Origin: Leclercia adecarboxylata
GTDB lineage: Bacteria; Pseudomonadota; Gammaproteobacteria; Enterobacterales; Enterobacteriaceae
Reading direction: 5' to 3'
NCBI RefSeq assembly: GCF_006874705.1
Contig: NZ_CP035382.1
Coordinates: 3,224,001-3,288,000, forward strand
DNA length: 64,000 bases
The notes beneath the pieces were generated by a model. That model had not been told where the DNA came from and did no database searches. It was given only the letters and a program-made list of their open reading frames with translations. Each line of letters starts with the position of its first letter. Positions within the stretch are counted from its first letter, which is position 1. This document shows, in pieces, positions 8,708 to 24,220 of this stretch. The translations under genes and the position numbers were made by a program.

Positions 8708-9446
8708 ACAGGCGATTGCCGCCGCCTTTGGCCGGGCGGCGCACAGCTACGCGCGCCACGATGGTCTCCAGCGGCAAAGTGCCGACGGGCTGCGGGCTTT
8801 GCTGGCAGAGAACAGGTTTGCCAGCGTGCTGGACGCCGGCTGCGGCCCGGGGAGCAACAGCCTGGCCTGGCGCCAGGCCGGGAGTCATGTGACGGCGATG
8901 GATCTCTGCGCCCCGATGCTGGAGGAAGCGCGCCGCAACCAGGCGGCCGACTGCTATCTGCAGGCCGATATCGAAGCCATTCCGCTGGCGGAGGAGCAGT
9001 TCAGCCTGGTCTGGAGCCATCTGGCGGTGCAGTGGTGCGCCAGTCTGCCGCAGGCGCTGGCAGAGCTGTATCGCGTGGCGCAGCCGGGAGGCAAGGTGGC
9101 CTTCACCACGCTGCTCAACGGCTCGCTGCCGGAGCTGAATCAGGCCTGGCAGGCGGTGGATACCCAGCCGCACGCCAACCGTTTTCTGACCGGACAGCAG
9201 GTGAACGATGCCCTGTCCGGCTGGCAGTACCGCTGTGCGGTCCAGACCGTCACCCTGCTGTTTGACGATGCGCTCAGCGCCATGCAGTCCCTGAAGGGGA
9301 TCGGCGCCACCCATCTGCACGCCGGGCGGGCCGACAGGCCCTTAACGCGCGGCCAGCTGCAGCGGCTGGCGCAGGCCTGGCCGCAGCAGGCGGGGAAATT
9401 CCCGCTCTCTTATCAACTTTTTCATGGAATTATCGAACGTGACTGA
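8691..9446 (+). CDS. bioC: Malonyl-ACP O-methyltransferase BioC
   Basis: 251 residues from the ATG at 8691 ([20 protein letters not shown]), the E. coli length. SAM motif I is [15 protein letters not shown]. It methylates malonyl-ACP so that the fatty-acid machinery can build pimeloyl-ACP. The start lies inside the bioF 3' end; an earlier in-frame position at 8652 is less likely because it would extend the conserved N-terminus. Confidence 0.95.
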
Positions 9447-10164
9447 ACGTTATTTTGTCACCGGCACCGACACCGAGGTCGGTAAAACCGTCGCCAGCAC
9501 CGCCCTGTTACAGGCGGCGCGGGCGCTGGGCCGCAACACTGCCGGATACAAACCGGTGGCCTCGGGCAGTGAGATGACCGCACAAGGGCTGCGCAACAGC
9601 GATGCCCTGGCGTTACAGCACAACAGCAGCGTGACGCTGAGCTACCCGACGGTGAACCCTTATACCTTCGCGGAGCCGACGTCGCCGCACATCATCAGCG
9701 CCGACGAGCAGCGCCCGATCCTGTTCAGCACGCTCTCCGCCGGGTTACGCACCCTGGAGAGCTGTGCCGACTGGGTGCTGGTGGAAGGGGCGGGCGGCTG
9801 GTTCACGCCGCTGTCGCAGGAGCAGACCTTCGCCGACTGGGTGCTGGCCGAACGCCTGCCGGTGATCCTGGTGGTGGGGGGGAAGCTGGGCTGTATCAAC
9901 CACGCGATGCTGACCGCGCAGGCGATTCAGCAGGCGGGACTGCATTTTGCAGGCTGGGTGGCGAACGGGGTAGTGCCCCCCGGCAAGCGCCATGCCGAAT
10001 ACATGGCGACGCTCCAGCGCGTGCTGCCCGCTCCGCTGCTGGGCGAGATCCCGTGGCTGGGCGATACGGCTGACACCTCGGCAGTCGGGCAGTATCTGTC
10101 TCTTACTGCGCTGACGCCGTCGGCCCCATCCAGTGGGCAATCAGCGGGTCATCCAGCTCGCTGA
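9439..10164 (+). CDS. bioD: Dethiobiotin synthetase BioD, extended C-terminus
   Basis: Forms the ureido ring of dethiobiotin from DAPA, CO2 and ATP. The P-loop [12 protein letters not shown] is at the N-terminus. I chose GTG 9439 because E. coli BioD begins directly before [17 protein letters not shown] 9424 adds five residues. From GTG it has 241 residues against 225 in E. coli. The excess is at the C-terminus: homology-like sequence ends near YLSLTAL, and about 16 Pro/Ser/Gly-rich residues follow. These are encoded inside the convergent UrtE-like gene, overlapping it by 62 bases. Confidence 0.95.
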
Positions 10165-10798
10165 CCCGACCCTGAGCCACGTTTCGCCCCCGGTAAAGCA
10201 GGCAAAAGCGATCCGCCACCCGACGGATCAGGGAAAGATGCTGTTCGGCCAGCAGCACCGATAATCCCAGCTCCCGGTTGAACCTGAGCAGCAGCTGCGC
10301 CAGCTTGAGGGTAAACAGCTGGCCGGTGCCGCGGCTGGGCTCGTCGAGGATCAGCAGGCGAGGGCGGGTGACCAGCGCGTTAGCCAGTGCCAGCTGGTAC
10401 TGCTGGTCGTCATTAAGCCCCGAGGCCCGATGCTGGCGCAGCGGGTACAGCTCCGGAAAGAACTCAAAAACGTCGCGGCTTACCGATCCGCCCGCGACGC
10501 CTTTCGCCATCCGCGCGACATGCAGATTCTCCTCTACCGTCAGTTGCGAAAAGATCCGCCGGTCCTGTGGCACAAAGCTGATCCCCTCTCCTGGACGGGT
10601 CTCTGGCCCGGCGTCATGCCAGACCATGGTGCCGCTGGCGATGGGCAGCAGCCCGGCAATACAGCTCACGAGGGTGGTTTTCCCCATTCCGGGCAGCCCG
10701 ACGACGCCGGTGCAGAGGCCGGGAGGGAGATCGAGGTCAACGTTCCACAGGGTGTGGCGATCCCCGTAATACTGGTTTACGGCGCGCAGGCTTAACAT
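10103..10798 (-). CDS. Orphan UrtE/LivF-like ABC ATPase with degenerate signature motif
   Basis: 231 residues from ATG 10798, preceded by AAAAGGAGCACTACC. Overall it resembles UrtE, the second ATPase of urea/amide importers (MLSLRAVNQYYGDRHTLWNV; EFFPELYPL; NALVTRPRLLILDEPSRG). Walker A is GLPGMGKTT, the Q-loop FVPQD, Walker B LLILDEP and the switch LLAEQH. The signature LSGGQ is LNDDQ, an unusual loss. No permease, binding protein or second ATPase is adjacent. A sigma-54 promoter and NtrC-like sites lie upstream, suggesting nitrogen-limitation control. Whether it still powers transport is unknown. Confidence 0.8.
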   Translation of the reverse strand: MLSLRAVNQYYGDRHTLWNVDLDLPPGLCTGVVGLPGMGKTTLVSCIAGLLPIASGTMVWHDAGPETRPGEGISFVPQDRRIFSQLTVEENLHVARMAKGVAGGSVSRDVFEFFPELYPLRQHRASGLNDDQQYQLALANALVTRPRLLILDEPSRGTGQLFTLKLAQLLLRFNRELGLSVLLAEQHLSLIRRVADRFCLLYRGRNVAQGRVSELDDPLIAHWMGPTASAQ

Positions 10799-10838
10799 GG
10801 TAGTGCTCCTTTTCAGGCATCGGTGACACCTGATGCTC

Positions 10839-10854
10839 TGCAAGACTCTTGCCA
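10839..10854 (-). promoter_or_regulatory. Sigma-54 promoter of the UrtE-like gene
   Basis: Read on the minus strand, TGGCAAGAGTCTTGCA matches the sigma-54 consensus TGGCACGN4TTGCA with one mismatch and the obligatory GG/GC spacing. The predicted start near 10828 leaves a leader of about 30 bases with an AGGAG ribosome binding site before ATG 10798. Confidence 0.7.
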
Positions 10855-10929
10855 CAGCCCAAAAAAAGGCGCTTAAACCTTCTTTTTTCGGATTAGGTTC
10901 AAAAATGCGCGCTGCGATGACAGGAACCT

Positions 10930-10966
10930 GCACTGCGTCGGTGCCCCGTTTTATGCACCTGGTGCA
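10930..10966 (-). promoter_or_regulatory. Two NtrC-like enhancer sites
   Basis: GCACTGCGTCGGTGC (10930-10944) matches GCAC-N5-TGGTGC with one mismatch. TGCACCTGGTGCA (10954-10966) has perfect NtrC-like half-sites but a shortened centre. Measured from the predicted start near 10828 they centre around -109 and -132, a normal enhancer distance. Confidence 0.55.
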
Positions 10967-11124
10967 GGTACTATTTTGGTTAAAATGTGAGCAATGCCTC
11001 ACCAGTTCGTTCGCTGATTTTTGTCATAAGATCGCCATAATTGGGTGATAAAAATTTTTTACCGTCGCGCTGGGGAGAAAAACCGGGAACGGGCCGAGTC
11101 ACGTTCCGTATGGCCTGGAGACAG

Positions 11125-11147
11125 TTATCCACTATTCCTGTGGATAA
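11125..11147. promoter_or_regulatory. Inverted pair of DnaA boxes upstream of uvrB
   Basis: TTATCCACT (11125-11133) and TGTGGATAA (11139-11147) form an inverted pair; the second is a perfect DnaA box and the first has one mismatch. They lie in the 746-base gene-free interval 10799-11544, about 400 bases before uvrB. A DnaA site upstream of uvrB is also known in E. coli. Apart from these, the promoter/NtrC sites and the LexA box, I see nothing coding in that interval. Confidence 0.6.
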
Positions 11148-11449
11148 CCATGTGCATTAGAGTTAGAAAACACAAGGTAAGCGAGAGAATACGCGGCCTG
11201 CGCCTGAATTGCTGCGAAACGCGTCTTTTTGAAAACTTTATTGCAGATCAAGGCGTTAAATAAAAGCAATCATTGTCATCAAACTGTCAATCAGATGCGC
11301 TAAAGTTCGGCGGTTCGCCTTGACAAATGTTAAAAAACAAAAAATTCTGGGGATAACCGACCCCTGATGGAATTTTATCCCGTCACAGCCGAAATTTTGC
11401 GCAGCTTTGCTTGATTCCCGTTGCTGCTGGCACAAAACCACGCAGATGC

Positions 11450-11473
11450 TACTGGGTTTATATCCAGTATAAT
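11450..11473 (+). promoter_or_regulatory. LexA box and -10 of uvrB
   Basis: TACTGGGTTTATATCCAGTA (11450-11469) has the CTG-N10-CAG core of an SOS box. It overlaps a consensus -10 TATAAT (11468-11473), so LexA would cover the promoter. uvrB starts at 11545. Confidence 0.88.
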
Positions 11474-11544
11474 TTACTGGCAAAAATAGCCATGAGGAGT
11501 AAAATTACACACCTGCCGTATTAATCATCATCAGGTCGCCGTTC

Positions 11545-13560
11545 ATGAGTAAACCGTTCAAACTGAATTCCGCTTTCCGTCCTTCTGGCGATCAGCCTGA
11601 AGCGATTCGCCGTCTGAAAGAGGGGCTGGAGGATGGGCTTGCACACCAGACGCTGCTGGGGGTGACCGGTTCGGGTAAAACCTTTACCGTCGCCAACGTG
11701 ATCGCCGATCTTCAGCGGCCCACCATGGTGCTGGCACCCAACAAAACCCTGGCTGCGCAGCTGTACGGCGAGATGAAAGAGTTCTTCCCCGAAAACGCGG
11801 TGGAGTATTTCGTCTCCTACTACGACTACTACCAGCCGGAAGCCTACGTCCCGAGCTCCGACACCTTTATTGAAAAGGATGCCTCGGTGAACGAGCATAT
11901 CGAGCAGATGCGTCTGTCCGCCACCAAGGCCTTGCTCGAGCGCCGCGACGTGGTGGTGGTAGCCTCGGTGTCAGCCATTTACGGCCTCGGCGACCCCGAT
12001 CTCTACCTGAAGATGATGCTGCACCTGACCCAGGGGATGATTATCGATCAGCGCGCCATCTTGCGGCGCCTGGCGGAGCTGCAATATACCCGCAACGATC
12101 AGGCATTTCAGCGCGGCACTTTCCGCGTTCGCGGCGAGGTCATCGACATCTTCCCGGCGGAATCGGACGACTTCGCGCTGCGCGTGGAGCTGTTTGATGA
12201 AGAGGTGGAGCGGCTGTCCCTGTTTGATCCGCTGACCGGCCACGTGGAGTCGATTATTCAGCGCTTCACCGTCTACCCCAAAACCCACTACGTTACCCCG
12301 CGCGAGCGCATCGTGCAGGCGATGGAAGATATCAAGGTAGAGCTGGCGGATCGCCGCAAGACCCTGCTGGACAACAACAAGCTGCTGGAAGAGCAGCGCA
12401 TCAGCCAGCGTACCCAGTTCGATCTCGAGATGATGAACGAGCTGGGCTACTGCTCCGGTATTGAAAACTACTCGCGCTATCTCTCCGGCCGCGGGCCGGG
12501 CGAGGCGCCGCCGACCCTGTTTGACTACCTGCCGGCGGATGGCCTGCTGGTGGTGGACGAATCCCACGTGACCATTCCGCAGATTGGCGGCATGTACCGC
12601 GGTGACCGGGCGCGTAAAGAGACCCTGGTGGAGTACGGCTTCCGTCTGCCGTCGGCGCTGGATAACCGCCCGATGAAGTTCGAAGAGTTTGAGGCGCTGG
12701 CGCCGCAAACCATCTACGTTTCCGCGACGCCGGGCAACTACGAGCTGGAGAAATCGGGCGATGAAGTGGTGGATCAGGTGGTGCGTCCGACCGGTCTGCT
12801 GGATCCGATTATCGAAGTGCGTCCGGTTGGCACCCAGGTGGACGATCTGCTGTCGGAGATCCGTGCCCGGGCGGCCATCAACGAGCGCGTGCTGGTCACC
12901 ACCCTGACCAAACGCATGGCGGAAGATCTGACCGAATACCTCGAGGAGCATGGCGAGAAGGTGCGCTATCTGCACTCGGATATCGACACCGTGGAACGTA
13001 TGGAGATCATCCGCGACCTGCGCCTTGGCGAGTTCGACGTGCTGGTGGGGATCAACCTGCTGCGTGAAGGGCTGGATATGCCGGAAGTGTCGCTGGTGGC
13101 GATTCTGGATGCCGATAAAGAGGGCTTCCTGCGCTCCGAGCGCTCGCTGATCCAGACCATTGGTCGTGCGGCGCGAAACGTCAACGGCAAAGCGATTCTT
13201 TACGGCGACAAGATCACCCCGTCAATGGCGAAAGCCATCGGCGAAACCGAACGCCGCCGCGAGAAGCAGCAGCGCTATAACGAAGAGCACGGCATTACGC
13301 CGCAGGGTCTGAACAAGAAGGTGGTGGATATCCTGGCGCTCGGCCAGAACATCGCCAAAACCAAAGCGAAGGGCCGCGGCAAGTCGCGCTCACCGGTGGA
13401 GGCCGATACCGTTGCCCTGACGCCGAAAGCGCTGCAGCAGAAGATTCACGAACTGGAAGGGCAGATGATGCAGCACGCGCAGAATCTGGAGTTCGAAGAG
13501 GCCGCGCAGATCCGCGACCAGCTACATCAGTTGCGGGATTTATTCATCGCCGCGTCGTAG
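11545..13560 (+). CDS. uvrB: Excinuclease ABC subunit UvrB
   Basis: 671 residues. Damage-verifying subunit of nucleotide excision repair; it is loaded by UvrA and recruits UvrC. Walker A is GVTGSGKTF (about residues 39-47); the tyrosine-rich hairpin [11 protein letters not shown] inserts between the strands; helicase motif II is VVDESHV and motif [11 protein letters not shown]. The C-terminal UVR domain that binds UvrC covers about 630-665. SOS-controlled by the LexA box at 11450. Confidence 0.98.
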
Positions 13561-18733: not shown

Positions 18734-21073
18734 ATGGATAACTGGCTGGCGCTTTTCGACGGACAGACCCGCCACACCCTCCGGATTACCGGCTCCGCCG
18801 TCACCCCCGACGTGCTGCGCTTCAGCGGCCGGGAGGCTCTGAGCGAGCCGTTCCGCTGGGAAATCGACTTCACCACCCCGCAGGATAATATCGCCCCGCA
18901 GGATGTGCTGATGAAACACGCCACCCTGCATATGCGCAGCGGGAAGGCGGTGCACGGTATCATCACCCGTCTGGAGTGGATTTCCACCACTGCCGACCAG
19001 TCGCATTACCAGGTGGTGCTGAGCTCCCGTCTGGCACTGCTGACGCGTATCCGTCAGTGCAGTGTATTTCAGAATCAGTCGGTGCCGGAGGTGGTGGAGC
19101 AGGTATTACGCCAGCATGGCCTTGAAGGCGCGGATTTTGATTTTCGTCTGGAGCGCACCTACCCGGCACGTGAACTGATTACTCAGTGGCGGGAGACGGA
19201 CCTGGAATTTATTCAGCGCATACTGTCAGAGGTCGGGATTTTCTGGCGCACGGAAATGGACGAGGCGCGCGGGCTGGATATTTATATTTTTGCCGACAGC
19301 CAGCTGAACTACCGGTTTGACGTTCATCTGCCGTACCGCGAGCCGTCCGGGCTGTATGACGGGGCACAGGAGTCAGTGTGGGACGTGTCCACCCTGAACC
19401 AGGTGGTGCCGGGCATGGTCAGCGTACGGGATTACAACTACCGTATCGCCGGAACACCGATGGACGCGACGGTGAGCGTGCGCAGTGAGGCGGTGACCAC
19501 CGGAGAGCATTACCGCTACGTCGCGCCGTACCGGGAGGCAGGCGACGACACCGACCCGGAGCCGGAGACCGAATCCGGTGCCTTTTATGCCCGCATTCAC
19601 CATGAGCGGGAACTGAACGCCTCGGCGCGTATTCATCTGGAGAGTAACGCCGCATGCCTGCTGCCGGGCCAGGTGCTGGAGCCGCAGGGCGAGGTGATTC
19701 GGGCGCTTAAGGAGGGTGTGGTCATCACCACCATGGAGTACCATGCCGCCCGTGACACCCGCCTGCATGTCTCCGTCGACGGGATGCCCTATACCGAACG
19801 TTACTGCTTCCGCCCGGCAGAAACCTAACGCCCGGAAGTGCACGGCACGTTGCCCGCACGGGTTGAGAGCCGGGAGAAGAACGACATCTACGCGCATCTG
19901 GATGAACAGGGTCGCTACCGCGTCAGGCTGGATTTCGACCGGGACGATACTGGACAGGGGTTTGCCTACCTGTGGCTGCGGATGGCGAAGCCGTATGCCG
20001 GTGGGACATACGGCTGGCACACCCCGCTGCTCGACGGTACCGAAGTGGCCATCGCATACAGCAACGGCGACATCGACCTGCCGTATATCTCCCACGCCCT
20101 GCATGATTCTGAGCACCCGGACCATGTTGCCCGCGACAACCACACCCGCAACGTGCTGCGCACGCCTGCGAATAACAAGATGCGGATGGAAGACCAGCGC
20201 GGGGAGGAGCATATCAAGCTCGCCACGGAGTACGGCAAAACGCAGCTGAATACCGGGCATCTGGTGGACGTGCAGGAGATACCCCGTGGCAAGGGTTTTG
20301 AACTCAGAACCGATGAGCACGGCGTGATTCGCGTCGCAAAAGGGCTGTTTATCACCGCGGACGGACAGCAGAAGGCGGCGGGCGAGGTGCTGGAGATGGA
20401 GACCGCCCTGAAAGAAATTGATATCTGCCTGCAGCAGCTTCAGCAACTGGAAACTGCCGCTGAACAGGCGCAGGCGCTGAAGGCGGACATTGACAGCCAG
20501 ATACAGATGTTTGAAAAGCGCCTGAAGCCGCTGAACGAAACCCTGCTGTTCTCCGCGCCGGAAGGGATGGCATTCACCAGCGGTGAGCATCTGCAGATGA
20601 CCGCCGCGAAGAACATTGCCATTAACGCCGGGAGCGATATCAGCACTGGCGTGATGGGCAACATGACGGCGCTGGCCGGAGAAAAAATCGGGTTGTTTGC
20701 GAGAACGGGGCAACTGAGCCTGAAAGCCAGCGAAGGCCAGGTGGAGATGCAGGCGCAGAACGGGAAGATGCAGTTGATTGCGGAGAAAAAGCTGACGATG
20801 AGTTCGGCGAGTGACATCTCATTTACCGGAAAGAAACGCATCACGCTGATTGGCGGCGGGAGCTACCTGCGGCTGGAGGCGGGGAAGATTGAGTACGGCA
20901 CGGTGGGGACCTACCTGCGGCGGACGAAAAGGACCATGGCGGCGGCTCCGGCCACCATGCCGTTACCCATTCCGCTTCTCCCGGGTCAGTATCCGCCGCT
21001 TAATGGCTCAATATGTATCGAATGCCTCCTCAATGCCATCAGAGCCAACGACGCTATTGTTCAGGGAGCGTAG
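18734..21073 (+). pseudogene. vgrG: Type VI spike protein VgrG, interrupted by an in-frame stop
   Basis: A 780-codon VgrG frame with one TAA at 19826-19828 (codon 365). The first 364 residues are the gp27-like hub domain (FSGREALSEPFRWEIDF ... GIFWRTEMDE). The same frame continues at once with the gp5-like OB fold (PARVESREKNDIYAHLDEQG, GTYGWHTPLLDGTEVAIAYS), a coiled-coil insert near residues 550-600, and the DUF2345 repeat region. It ends with a Pro-rich tail (AAPATMPLPIPLLPGQYPPL). A GTG at 19838 could restart translation in frame. No clear ribosome binding site precedes the ATG. Either a recent pseudogene, a readthrough product or a two-chain spike. No other T6SS core gene is in the window. 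Confidence 0.88.
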
Positions 21074-21076
21074 TCA

Positions 21077-21904
21077 ATGGATGCTAAAAAAATGATGCAG
21101 GCGCTACCTGAATCAATTAACACACATCTCTTTCTGTTACTGGAAGGTGGCGCGCAAACATCGGATGCTTTTCAAACTTTTTATAATGAACACGCATCGG
21201 CTCTGTATTCGCTGTATCTCCATCCACAGCTTGCAGAATTCAGAAACTATGGACCCTGGTTGTTCGCTTTAAAAAATAAGGCGGAGGTAGAACGTTATAT
21301 TGATTCCATGTCGGGTTTAGCGGCTGTTATCGCTTCTTCACGCTCAGGCGGAGCTTTAGCCGTTCAGCTTTCTGCTGCATGTACAATTATTTCGCCCGAT
21401 GACTCTGCGTCATTAGTGCGTTTTTATGTCCGGAATGTCATGAGTCTACTGGCGAGCCGTAACGATCGGGAATGGCACAGTATCTTATTTAGAGGGGTTT
21501 CTCAGTGGTGGTCACCTGAAGAGAATGGATGGCAGCCTGTAAATATTCCCCCTTCACGGGTAATAAATGCCAGAGATAGCGCCATACGGCTGAATAAAGA
21601 AGAATGGCAATATATCGCAGATGACCCGGTTGTCACCAGTGTATTAACCGCCTGGCAAAAGTTGCCCTCCAGCCAGCATTTCTCTCCGTGTGTACAGCGC
21701 GATATGGTCAAAAAAGCGCTGAAAAAAGCATGCGAAGCGAAAATGAAAGCGGGCACAGAACAAAAACTGTATGCCCTTTTTTATCTTAATGGCGGTAAAA
21801 AAAGACTGGAGTCAGAGACTATACAGTCTGCATTAGAAAATGTTGCGCAGGGAAAAGTCTCGCTGGAGCAAGTATTCAAAAATATTATTCAACATCAGGG
21901 ATGA
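21077..21904 (+). CDS. DUF4123-type T6SS effector adaptor
   Basis: 275 residues, 3 bases after the vgrG stop. The N-terminal half (LFLLLEGGAQTSDAF ... LYSLYLHPQLAEFRNYGPWLF ... LRFYVRNVMSLLASRND-like spacing) fits DUF4123 (Tap/TEC) chaperones, which load an effector onto the cognate VgrG. No signal peptide, consistent with a cytosolic adaptor. Base composition turns clearly more A+T-rich than in vgrG. It probably serves the effector at 22436. Confidence 0.75.
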   Translation: MDAKKMMQALPESINTHLFLLLEGGAQTSDAFQTFYNEHASALYSLYLHPQLAEFRNYGPWLFALKNKAEVERYIDSMSGLAAVIASSRSGGALAVQLSAACTIISPDDSASLVRFYVRNVMSLLASRNDREWHSILFRGVSQWWSPEENGWQPVNIPPSRVINARDSAIRLNKEEWQYIADDPVVTSVLTAWQKLPSSQHFSPCVQRDMVKKALKKACEAKMKAGTEQKLYALFYLNGGKKRLESETIQSALENVAQGKVSLEQVFKNIIQHQG

Positions 21905-21913
21905 AACCAGAAT

Positions 21914-22432
21914 ATGGGATTTTTCCGTGCGTATAAAAAAATAGACGGTGCGGTTAACCGGGGTTATGCCCGTTGGGGGAAATGTCTCTGGGGAGCATTG
22001 ATACTGCCAGTGGTGATTTATCTTGGCTGGTCGGTATGGGCGGCGGTCTGGGGGCCGCCGTCGGGGCCGGTGACGCTGATTATTCACAGCGAAATTGACA
22101 GGCCTGTTCTGGGATTTAGCGTAAACGGGGTGGCGGGGGCGAATGCCTTTGCGCATGGCGGGGGTAAAGCAACCTGCTGCGGAAGCATCAGCGGGGATAA
22201 GGCTGAAGTGATCTGGACACTGGATATAACTCACGAGCAATACCTTAAAGGTATGAGATTAGAATCACGCCACACGGTAATGCCTATGCCTGCCCGCCAG
22301 TGGGGTGAAAATTATCTTCATGTCTATTTCCTGCCTGAAGATAATGTCCGGTTATGGTGGAGTACCGGATTTAATCATCCTGATTCTCACGATATCAAAG
22401 ACCAAACCTCAGAATTAAAAAAAGGAAAATAA
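21914..22432 (+). CDS. DUF3304-type membrane-anchored protein, candidate immunity protein
   Basis: 172 residues with one N-terminal transmembrane segment at about 24-46 (LWGALILPVVIYLGWSVWAA) and a periplasmic domain. The words FSVNGVAGANAFAHGGGKATCCG and the later Trp-rich part match DUF3304 proteins, which often sit beside T6SS lipase effectors. A periplasmic anchored inhibitor would suit an effector that attacks membranes from the periplasm. The immunity role is inferred from position and topology only; 3 bases separate it from the effector gene. Confidence 0.65.
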   Translation: MGFFRAYKKIDGAVNRGYARWGKCLWGALILPVVIYLGWSVWAAVWGPPSGPVTLIIHSEIDRPVLGFSVNGVAGANAFAHGGGKATCCGSISGDKAEVIWTLDITHEQYLKGMRLESRHTVMPMPARQWGENYLHVYFLPEDNVRLWWSTGFNHPDSHDIKDQTSELKKGK

Positions 22433-22435
22433 CAT

Positions 22436-24220
22436 ATGGATATTGAAAGCCTTATTGCGGCAGCAAACCGGGCCCAGCAGGCAGAAGATGCTGGTTTAGG
22501 GAACTGTTCACGGGTATGGCATGTGGGGTTCTTTTTTGATGGAATTCATCGAAATATCGAACAGGATGCACCGGAGCATCGTCTCAGCAACATTGCCAGA
22601 ATGTTCAGGGCTTTTCCGGATGAAAAAGAAAGCATGCCAAATGTGACTTATAATTCTTTTTACATTTCTGGCCTGGGCACTTCTTTTAATGAAACTCTCG
22701 TTGAAAAGCTTCACACCATCATGGACAGCGGCCTGGGCAGCATAAACGATAATTTAAAAGAACAGCCCGGCGAAATGGCCAAAGACGCGGGCATGGATTC
22801 TATAAAAGGCAACAACTGGTACGAGGTTTTAAAAAAACAGGGAAAGAAACTTCTTAACCCTACGGAATGGAAAAAACTGGCCTCCGATACGGCAAAAAAG
22901 GCTGCCAAAAAAAGTGTCATCGAAGCAACCCCCTGGCTTCGTGATAACCCTGTGATAGCAGATATGCTGGTAACGGGGGCGGATACCCGTATTGCATCGA
23001 CAAAAATATCGTTTGAAAAGGGATACAAAGAAGCTGTTAAAAAAAGCCCGGTCCCCGTCAGAGTCATTTCTGTCTCCCTTTTCGGTTTTGACCTCGGTGC
23101 TACCCTGGCACGTAAATTCCTCGACAGTCTGCTGAAAGATATTTGTAACAAAGAAGGGGATAAATACACCTACCAGGGCATACCCGTCGATATCGTCTTT
23201 ACCGGCCTGTTTGACTGCTCGCGACGCACATCGGCCAGCAACAACAACGGCATGGATTACTTTATCTCTGCGTTTGGCGGGCCAATAAAAGGAATCAGCG
23301 TATTGCTGGGAGACAAATCCATCGACCAGGATACCCCCCTGCCTGAGGCGGTAAAGAAAAGCCTGCATCTCGTTGCCGCCCATGAAACCCGCGTCTGGCG
23401 CTGCCTGTACCGCACCGGCAATAACCCGGCGCACAAGGAAGAACTCTATCCCGGATGCGCGGAGGATATTGGCGGTGGCCTGAAACCGGACGAACAGAAA
23501 CCCAGTGCGGAACTCTGCCGCGTGGCGCTGCACAGAATGTACCGCGAGGCGACCATGGCGGGCGTGCCTTTCCCTGATTTTCAAAGTCTGAAATCTTACT
23601 CCGAAACCGTAGCCAGCTATTTTACCGTCCAGGACAACGTTAAAAACCAGTCCATCCTGCAGTGGGCAGAAGCCTACCAGAGCGCACTGCCTTTTACTTC
23701 ATTAAGCACCGCATGCCAGAACCGTCATCTGGACAGCTATATCGACTGGCTGGGTCGTCAGTACTATCAGTACCGCACGGAATGCATGAAATACGAAAAG
23801 CAGCGCGGCGATACGCTGGCCTCTGCTGGCGCATCAGTAGGGTTTGCAGGCATTACTCAGGAGGCGAAAGAGACCGCCGGGCAGTACGCCACTGAACTGT
23901 CTGTGTTACAGCAAAACTGGGGCTGGCTTGATGACGTGAAGGATGCCGCGATAAGAATGCGAAACAGTATTGAACAGAACCCCATGGACAGGCGCAGGGA
24001 TATCGTACCGAACGTGTATGGGCCGGCGCTGTGGCGTGCGAAGCGATTTCTGGATTATTTCCATGCGGCGCACCTCGGTAAGCCCCAGCCATTTCCCATA
24101 GATGCTGCACCGCCGGAAATGTACGCATGGTTTGTACACGACCTGCAAACCGTTGAAAAAGGAGCGGGTATCTCCCAGGACTTTTTTGTAATTCGCTCAA
24201 TGGAGATGCCTGAGGCCTGA
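22436..24220 (+). CDS. Tle1/DUF2235-like T6SS effector with atypical active site
   Basis: 594 residues, no signal peptide. Features of the DUF2235 (Tle1 phospholipase) fold are visible in order: HVGFFFDGIHRN (30-40), the nucleophile elbow VSLFGFDLGATLARKF (213-228), VFTGLFDCSRRTS (254-266), HLVAAHETRVWR (311-322) and ELYPGCAEDIGGGL (336-349). Family members have GFSRG at the elbow and VHSDVGGG later; here the serine is Asp219 (GFDLG) and the His is Ala (CAED). The reaction is therefore uncertain: a dead enzyme, a different nucleophile, or a serine elsewhere. Lys-rich insert at 130-205. Last gene of the cassette. Confidence 0.75.
   Translation: MDIESLIAAANRAQQAEDAGLGNCSRVWHVGFFFDGIHRNIEQDAPEHRLSNIARMFRAFPDEKESMPNVTYNSFYISGLGTSFNETLVEKLHTIMDSGLGSINDNLKEQPGEMAKDAGMDSIKGNNWYEVLKKQGKKLLNPTEWKKLASDTAKKAAKKSVIEATPWLRDNPVIADMLVTGADTRIASTKISFEKGYKEAVKKSPVPVRVISVSLFGFDLGATLARKFLDSLLKDICNKEGDKYTYQGIPVDIVFTGLFDCSRRTSASNNNGMDYFISAFGGPIKGISVLLGDKSIDQDTPLPEAVKKSLHLVAAHETRVWRCLYRTGNNPAHKEELYPGCAEDIGGGLKPDEQKPSAELCRVALHRMYREATMAGVPFPDFQSLKSYSETVASYFTVQDNVKNQSILQWAEAYQSALPFTSLSTACQNRHLDSYIDWLGRQYYQYRTECMKYEKQRGDTLASAGASVGFAGITQEAKETAGQYATELSVLQQNWGWLDDVKDAAIRMRNSIEQNPMDRRRDIVPNVYGPALWRAKRFLDYFHAAHLGKPQPFPIDAAPPEMYAWFVHDLQTVEKGAGISQDFFVIRSMEMPEA

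Follow-up and report, generated by a model that had tools for sequence, protein, structure and literature searches.

The window, which is the whole 64,000-nucleotide stretch of Leclercia adecarboxylata DNA analyzed here, encodes between bioD and uvrB an orphan ABC protein descended from UrtE. We lean slightly toward reading this protein as an ATP-gated docking switch that would be turned on by NtrC and sigma-54 and that likely works outside transport, because purifying selection on it persists in genomes with no detected importer of its type. Sequence comparison supplied the grounds for this reading, namely the promoter parts and their conservation, the descent of the proteins as a single clade, the loss of particular motifs, the selection on the protein, and the presence of the gene in genomes lacking any detected permease of the branched-chain amino acid/urea importer class (HAAT).

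We conceived that during nitrogen hunger NtrC and sigma-54 would turn the ATPase gene on, with phosphorylated NtrC driving its promoter. The product, which keeps its own ATP-binding motifs and has lost those that in other ABC proteins complete a partner's ATP site, would bind ATP and would probably not form the canonical two-site homodimer. It could dock on a partner via the Q-loop surface, as PhnK does on C-P lyase.

The gene has 231 codons, with an ATG start and AAGGAG ahead of it in the window sequence; the ORF list also holds a longer GTG frame that reaches back through the promoter. Its best curated family is UrtE, and its neighbors are a biotin gene (bioD) and a DNA-repair gene (uvrB), which confirms the original prediction of a UrtE-like ATPase standing as a single-gene unit between these two. 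The gene and its surroundings are as follows.

9424..10164, plus strand: bioD, convergent neighbor of the ATPase gene, the 3′ ends of the two overlapping in the window
10103..10798, minus strand: orphan UrtE-like ABC ATPase gene, 231 aa, matching PF00005 at 8.8e-20 and the UrtE model at 174.9 bits, below its cut-off of 285.8
10806..10811, minus strand: Shine-Dalgarno-like AAGGAG before the ATG, read from the sequence
11545..13560, plus strand: uvrB, divergent neighbor of the ATPase gene

When positions 10000-11600 were searched against Rfam, no RNA element matched up to E = 1. Elsewhere in the window, at 18734-24220 and downstream of moa genes, a VgrG-like protein and large ORFs make up what looks by eye like a type VI secretion-like block.

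The ATPase gene was collected at 178 loci with 155 distinct genes. The 178 consist of 86 loci (the window's genome included), 18 added later, 73 from genome records, and one from a plasmid. The genome-record search gave 80 loci, from which seven were dropped for having no uvrB in view (L197, L200, L202, L205, L208, L209, and L210), all of them UrtE genes adjoining urtC and urtD; the uvrB requirement cost none of the 86 loci. L009-L012 were excluded, their genomes being identical to L094-L097. uvrB was in view at 177 of the 178 loci and divergent every time, bioD at 175 and convergent in 175/175, and both at 174, while urtC lay next to the orphan gene at 0/178. Because the loci were gathered by similarity to the ATPase gene, this fixed place between bioD and uvrB is a property of the finds.

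Holders of the gene are Klebsiella pneumoniae and K. oxytoca, Raoultella, Enterobacter, Kosakonia, Citrobacter, and Buttiauxella, and further Pantoea, Erwinia, Tatumella, Serratia, Rahnella, and Yersinia. A profile built from 44 relatives detected it (E ≤ 1e-75) in 144 of the 392 genomes sampled from the family, and that sample holds many reduced genomes; 40 of the 144 are not among the collected loci. The database held 466 relatives of the protein. Among the best 120 of the 466, the names were generic (ABC transporter ATP-binding protein, ATP-binding cassette domain protein, branched-chain amino acid ATPase component), and the nearest named entries were labelled Enterobacter hormaechei (94%) and Leclercia (93%). 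Among the titles and abstract openings listed by literature searches, none described the gene. Reading one bioD-uvrB gap of E. coli, that of strain FDAARGOS_497 (578 bp), turned up neither the ATPase gene nor a sigma-54 element, and tblastn recovered no remnant; with two mismatches allowed, the sole NtrC-site match fell in a conserved stretch near uvrB that looks DnaA-like by eye. Window positions 10165-11100 gave no blastn match to the E. coli collection at the nucleotide level.

Two variations of the locus were seen. One block of uvrB, ATPase gene, and bio genes, together with moa and hut genes, is carried on a 517-kb Enterobacter hormaechei plasmid (L100, CP103578.1). In several genera, about 1-2 kb of other genes lie between the ATPase gene and bioD, and the inserts in the gap between the ATPase stop and bioD vary by genus (L141, L150, L152, L154, L158, L186, L188, and L191), including by eye a small HicA-like and helix-turn-helix pair, an Hcp/effector-like set, and 550-aa proteins. 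A downstream partner gene for the ATPase was considered and rejected, as the inserts in these eight loci differ by genus and none is conserved.

The control region upstream of the gene contains three elements.

10839..10854, minus strand: -24/-12 sigma-54 promoter element TGGCAAGAGTCTTGCA, the strict pattern being present in 154 of 155 distinct loci
10929..10944, minus strand: NtrC-like site 1, GCACCGACGCAGTGCA, of the form GCAC-N7-GTGCA, starting 90 bp upstream of the -24 element
10954..10966, minus strand: NtrC-like site 2, TGCACCAGGTGCA, starting 22 bp upstream of site 1, with only its TGCACC half conserved

The promoter element TGGCAAGAGTCTTGCA (10854-10839) ends 41 bases before the ATG, as originally stated. 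Site 1, centered at about -109 from the predicted start, fits the spacing of enteric NtrC sites, GCAC-N7-GTGC. Site 2 is centered at about -132, its arms being 3 apart, not 7. Thus, of the two NtrC-like sites proposed at about -109 and -132, both are present, but the second is off the NtrC spacing and survives among relatives as a TGCACC half.

Conservation was scored with the strict sigma-54 pattern TGGCN7TTGC[AT] and with a paired NtrC site allowing one mismatch. Within 400 bp of the start, the strict pattern occurred in 84 of 86 loci, compared with a mean of 0.7/86 in dinucleotide shuffles, and the element plus NtrC pair occurred in 68 of 86, compared with 0 in shuffles; among the 18 unpaired loci, the leader reaches at least 255 nt in 16. 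Whole-gap counts were 159/160 for the sigma-54 element and 157/160 for the NtrC pair. Among distinct genes, they were 154/155 and 150/155, so the conservation in homologous loci on which the original prediction had staked itself was indeed found. The only distinct locus without the sigma-54 element is L069, and those without the paired site are L069, L149, L170, L261, and L264. The strict pattern also admits the weaker elements (TGGCCT..) seen at many distant loci. Overall, 173 of the 178 loci were paired, with an exact GCAC-N7-GTGC in 158 of the 173. The TGCACC half lay within 35 bp upstream of site 1 in 142 of 150 paired distinct loci and within 60 bp upstream in 164 of the 173 paired loci (21-24 bp away in 156), whereas the same search 60 bp downstream found it in 4 of 173.

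The spacing between the NtrC site and the -24 element falls into clusters at about 80, 91, 101, 111, 122, 133, and 145 bp, roughly one DNA turn apart. Where a locus had several exact NtrC sites, the nearest exact one was used, alternative distances of 171-183 bp being listed for L265, L266, L267, L269, L272, and L274. The phasing vector length was 0.74 at 10.75 bp, and 0 of 5000 random draws reached the value of the 33 distinct distances; this is indicative only, because related genomes are not independent and the draws spanned 80-147 bp although distances of 75 and 78 were observed. The leader between promoter and gene varies from 24 to 445 nt, suggesting that selection holds the promoter parts to each other rather than the promoter to the gene. 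As for membership in the NtrC/sigma-54 regulon, the elements are conserved as counted above (154 and 150 of 155), and rpoN and ntrC were present in 10 of 10 genomes checked. From these elements we infer that NtrC and sigma-54 probably act at the ATPase promoter. Incidentally, by eye, a palindrome TGTCA-N6-TGACA recurs about 50-100 nt before the ATPase start in L084, L086, L087, L093, and L195, hinting at a second regulator of these Rahnella/Ewingella-type loci.

The protein was examined for descent, motifs, fold, and selection. It matches PF00005 and carries Walker A and Walker B, as an ABC ATPase does; its predicted fold is a confident ABC fold (pLDDT 87.7), and the nearest solved structure to the model is 1ji0. 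Three motifs matter below.

10673..10699, minus strand: Walker A GLPGMGKTT, residues 34-42, with GK[TS] in 155 of 155 distinct genes
10403..10417, minus strand: lost ABC signature LNDDQ, residues 128-132, at the position of LSGGQ in UrtE, with LSGGQ in 0 of 155
10337..10357, minus strand: Walker B and catalytic glutamate LLILDEP, residues 148-154, with the glutamate in 153 of 155 and the preceding aspartate in 155 of 155

In a tree rooted on three outgroup proteins, whose deep nodes are weak (0.06 and 0.50), the 155 orphan ATPases formed one clade (support 0.93). This clade sits in a node with 27 of 32 other-gammaproteobacterial UrtE proteins (support 1.0), apart from 30 enteric UrtE proteins. 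The closest named non-enteric relatives, e.g. those of Motiliproteus and Thiodiazotropha, adjoin urtC and urtD.

LSGGQ was present in 62 of 62 UrtE controls (30/30 enteric and 32/32 other gammaproteobacterial). At the same position the orphan ATPases have 88 different pentapeptides among 155, none with both glycines; this loss across the family is an addition to the original prediction. Entropy reached 2.13 bits at the signature and 1.85 bits at the D-loop, compared with 0-0.16 in UrtE. The signature and D-loop reach over the dimer face to the ATP bound by the partner, and the kept motifs bind the protein's own ATP. Walker B stood at 0.11 bits and the whole protein at 1.23 bits. Walker A (0.58 bits vs 0-0.06 in UrtE) and the Q-loop (0.74 vs 0.04-0.10) are more variable than in UrtE, so that even what has been kept is under looser constraint. 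The stretch following the Q-loop is not looser, at 0.57 bits compared with 0.16 and 0.65 in the two UrtE sets. The catalytic glutamate is replaced by glutamine in L069 and by aspartate in L180. L069 (G113) may be decaying, because the sigma-54 element, the Walker B glutamate, and a bioD in view are all missing there.

Selection was estimated as omega, which was 0.013-0.10 in 20 close, partly overlapping pairs; these values and those for the permease-less set below are rough, because dS exceeds 1 in several pairs of both. That the gene is a decaying, functionless relic of an old urt operon is hardly credible with such omegas, with proteins of 231-245 aa throughout the tree set (trimmed at 245), and with Walker motifs and the two-part promoter in nearly all loci, even though the signature is lost and the family evolves faster than enteric UrtE (mean distance from the clade root of 0.92 vs 0.34). 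Because the ATPase gene runs convergently into bioD, the conserved promoter could mainly make antisense RNA against the bio operon. The overlap of the 3′ ends in the window and the convergence at every one of the 175 loci where bioD is in view agree with this, but the strong purifying selection on the protein and the 1-2 kb of other genes before bioD in several genera make it very improbable.

Whether a transporter partner is needed was examined first within the window's genome, which has urtB, urtC, urtD, and a separate urtE at other sites. By position, each of its four HAAT permease pairs has two ATPases next to it, and its remaining PF02653 permeases adjoin frames of about 500 aa. Since every HAAT pair is beside its own ATPases, no permease is waiting for the orphan subunit.

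Among the 392 genomes, 109 have the ATPase gene and UrtB, 35 the gene alone, 27 UrtB alone, and 221 neither, where the UrtB count of 136 comprises 135 over the cut-off and one fragment below it. UrtB thus accompanies the gene in 109 of 144 genomes, compared with 27 of 248 without the gene, a strong association that is inflated by reduced genomes lacking both. Of the 35 gene-positive genomes (of 144) without UrtB, 29 have a LivF-like ATPase (E ≤ 1e-60), 27 of them over the cut-off. The other six gave no LivF-like match at E ≤ 1e-60 (G098, G209, G283, G154, G310, and G370); three belong to one genus, one of these three being Tatumella ptyseos as judged by an identical gene (L068 and L184), and three to another. 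One of their assemblies has two contigs and five are drafts.

These six genomes have 2, 1, 2, 1, 0, and 1 PF02653 permeases. No PF02653 permease was next to another, nor did any resemble LivH/LivM well (at most 28%, covering part of LivH), and for each of the seven the nearby ABC ATPase resembles LivF, LivG, or UrtE at only 24-35%. Nevertheless, the ATPase gene and the sigma-54 element are intact in 6/6, the paired NtrC site is present in 5/6 (two with one mismatch), and omega was 0.043-0.054 and 0.073-0.076. In two urtB-less genera, omega was 0.019-0.084. A HAAT permease was therefore not found in every gene-keeping genome, six (five being drafts) having no pair. Because the gene, the sigma-54 element, and selection persist in these six, the conserved function most likely needs no HAAT permease.

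The evidence also bears on two readings within transport. A spare UrtE/LivF-type subunit could join Urt/Liv permeases in trans with UrtD or LivG during nitrogen hunger, the partner's intact signature completing its own site to make an importer with one active site. UrtE descent in the tree, the limited variability of the Q-loop and the segment behind it, co-occurrence with UrtB, and the LivF-like ATPases of the 29 urtB-less positives (27 over the cut-off) are all expected from this, as is the rise of urea-importer genes as K. oxytoca moves toward nitrogen fixation, described in a published report (PMC8381380). On the other hand, six positives lack UrtB, a LivF-like ATPase, and a paired HAAT permease at the thresholds used while omega stays at 0.043-0.076, selection in two urtB-less genera is about as strong (0.019-0.084), and the window's genome has no HAAT pair without ATPases. 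We thus regard this subunit as unlikely, though deserving attention. Pairing in trans with a urea/amide importer, one of two options offered originally, is weakened as a general function, since selection persists without a detected permease, and a non-transport role is the better option.

Alternatively, the protein could be a built-in inhibitor of HAAT importers that fills the slot of the second ATPase, cannot complete the partner's site, and so throttles uptake during nitrogen stress. Loss of the signature and D-loop with retention of the ATP-binding motifs is how a dead half should look. However, six genomes without HAAT permeases keep the gene, and throttling uptake during starvation would be odd, so we consider an inhibitor improbable.

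Several findings speak against the docking switch that we favor. The Q-loop and the segment following it touch the permease in importers, and in the orphan ATPase both (0.74 and 0.57 bits) vary less than the whole protein (1.23 bits), as if a permease is still docked. In addition, the gene co-occurs with UrtB, and all but one of the six permease-less assemblies are drafts. A non-HAAT ABC partner may also serve the orphan ATPase.

The enteric nitrogen response, a regulon familiar from textbooks, was worked out mostly in E. coli, where studies could not reveal the orphan ATPase because E. coli seems to lack the gene; if the switch reading is true, this apparent absence would explain why the gene has stayed unstudied. 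The gene is a candidate regulon member whose control DNA is unusually well conserved. It may even represent a family-wide branch of the nitrogen-stress response, in which a former importer ATPase lost the half of its machinery serving a partner and became an NtrC-controlled ATP switch on a non-transport target from Klebsiella to Serratia, Yersinia, and Tatumella, and apparently not in E. coli, although we put this at somewhat less than an even chance. The protein also offers a natural way to learn what an ABC ATPase is capable of once the signature motif is gone, and gene-keeping genomes without a detected HAAT permease make the partner question directly testable.

Compared with known systems, the orphan ATPase combines familiar parts in a different way. 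In degenerate-site ABC pairs such as TAP and MRP1, one half has a degenerate site and both halves are known within one transporter, whereas the other half of the orphan ATPase is missing. Enteric promoters of the glnA type have two upstream NtrC sites and a -24/-12 element. The orphan promoter shares this arrangement of NtrC-like sites and element, but only half of its second site is there, both in the window and in the consensus of relatives, and it would drive an unstudied gene that is absent along with the promoter from the one E. coli gap examined. In a published account (PMC9947105), PhnK and PhnL are ABC proteins that serve nutrient scavenging by docking on C-P lyase; they are likened to the orphan ATPase for a possible mode of work, not for membership, as they have a known partner and operon and the orphan ATPase has neither. 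With UrtE (TIGR03410), the second ATPase of the urea importer UrtABCDE, the orphan ATPase shares the ABC fold, Walker A and B, the Q-loop segment, and, according to the tree with its weak deeper nodes, common descent. Unlike UrtE, it scores below the family cut-off (174.9 vs 285.8 bits), has LSGGQ in 0/155 rather than 62/62, and sits between bioD and uvrB outside any urt operon (urtC adjacent in 0/178) with a predicted sigma-54/NtrC promoter of its own.
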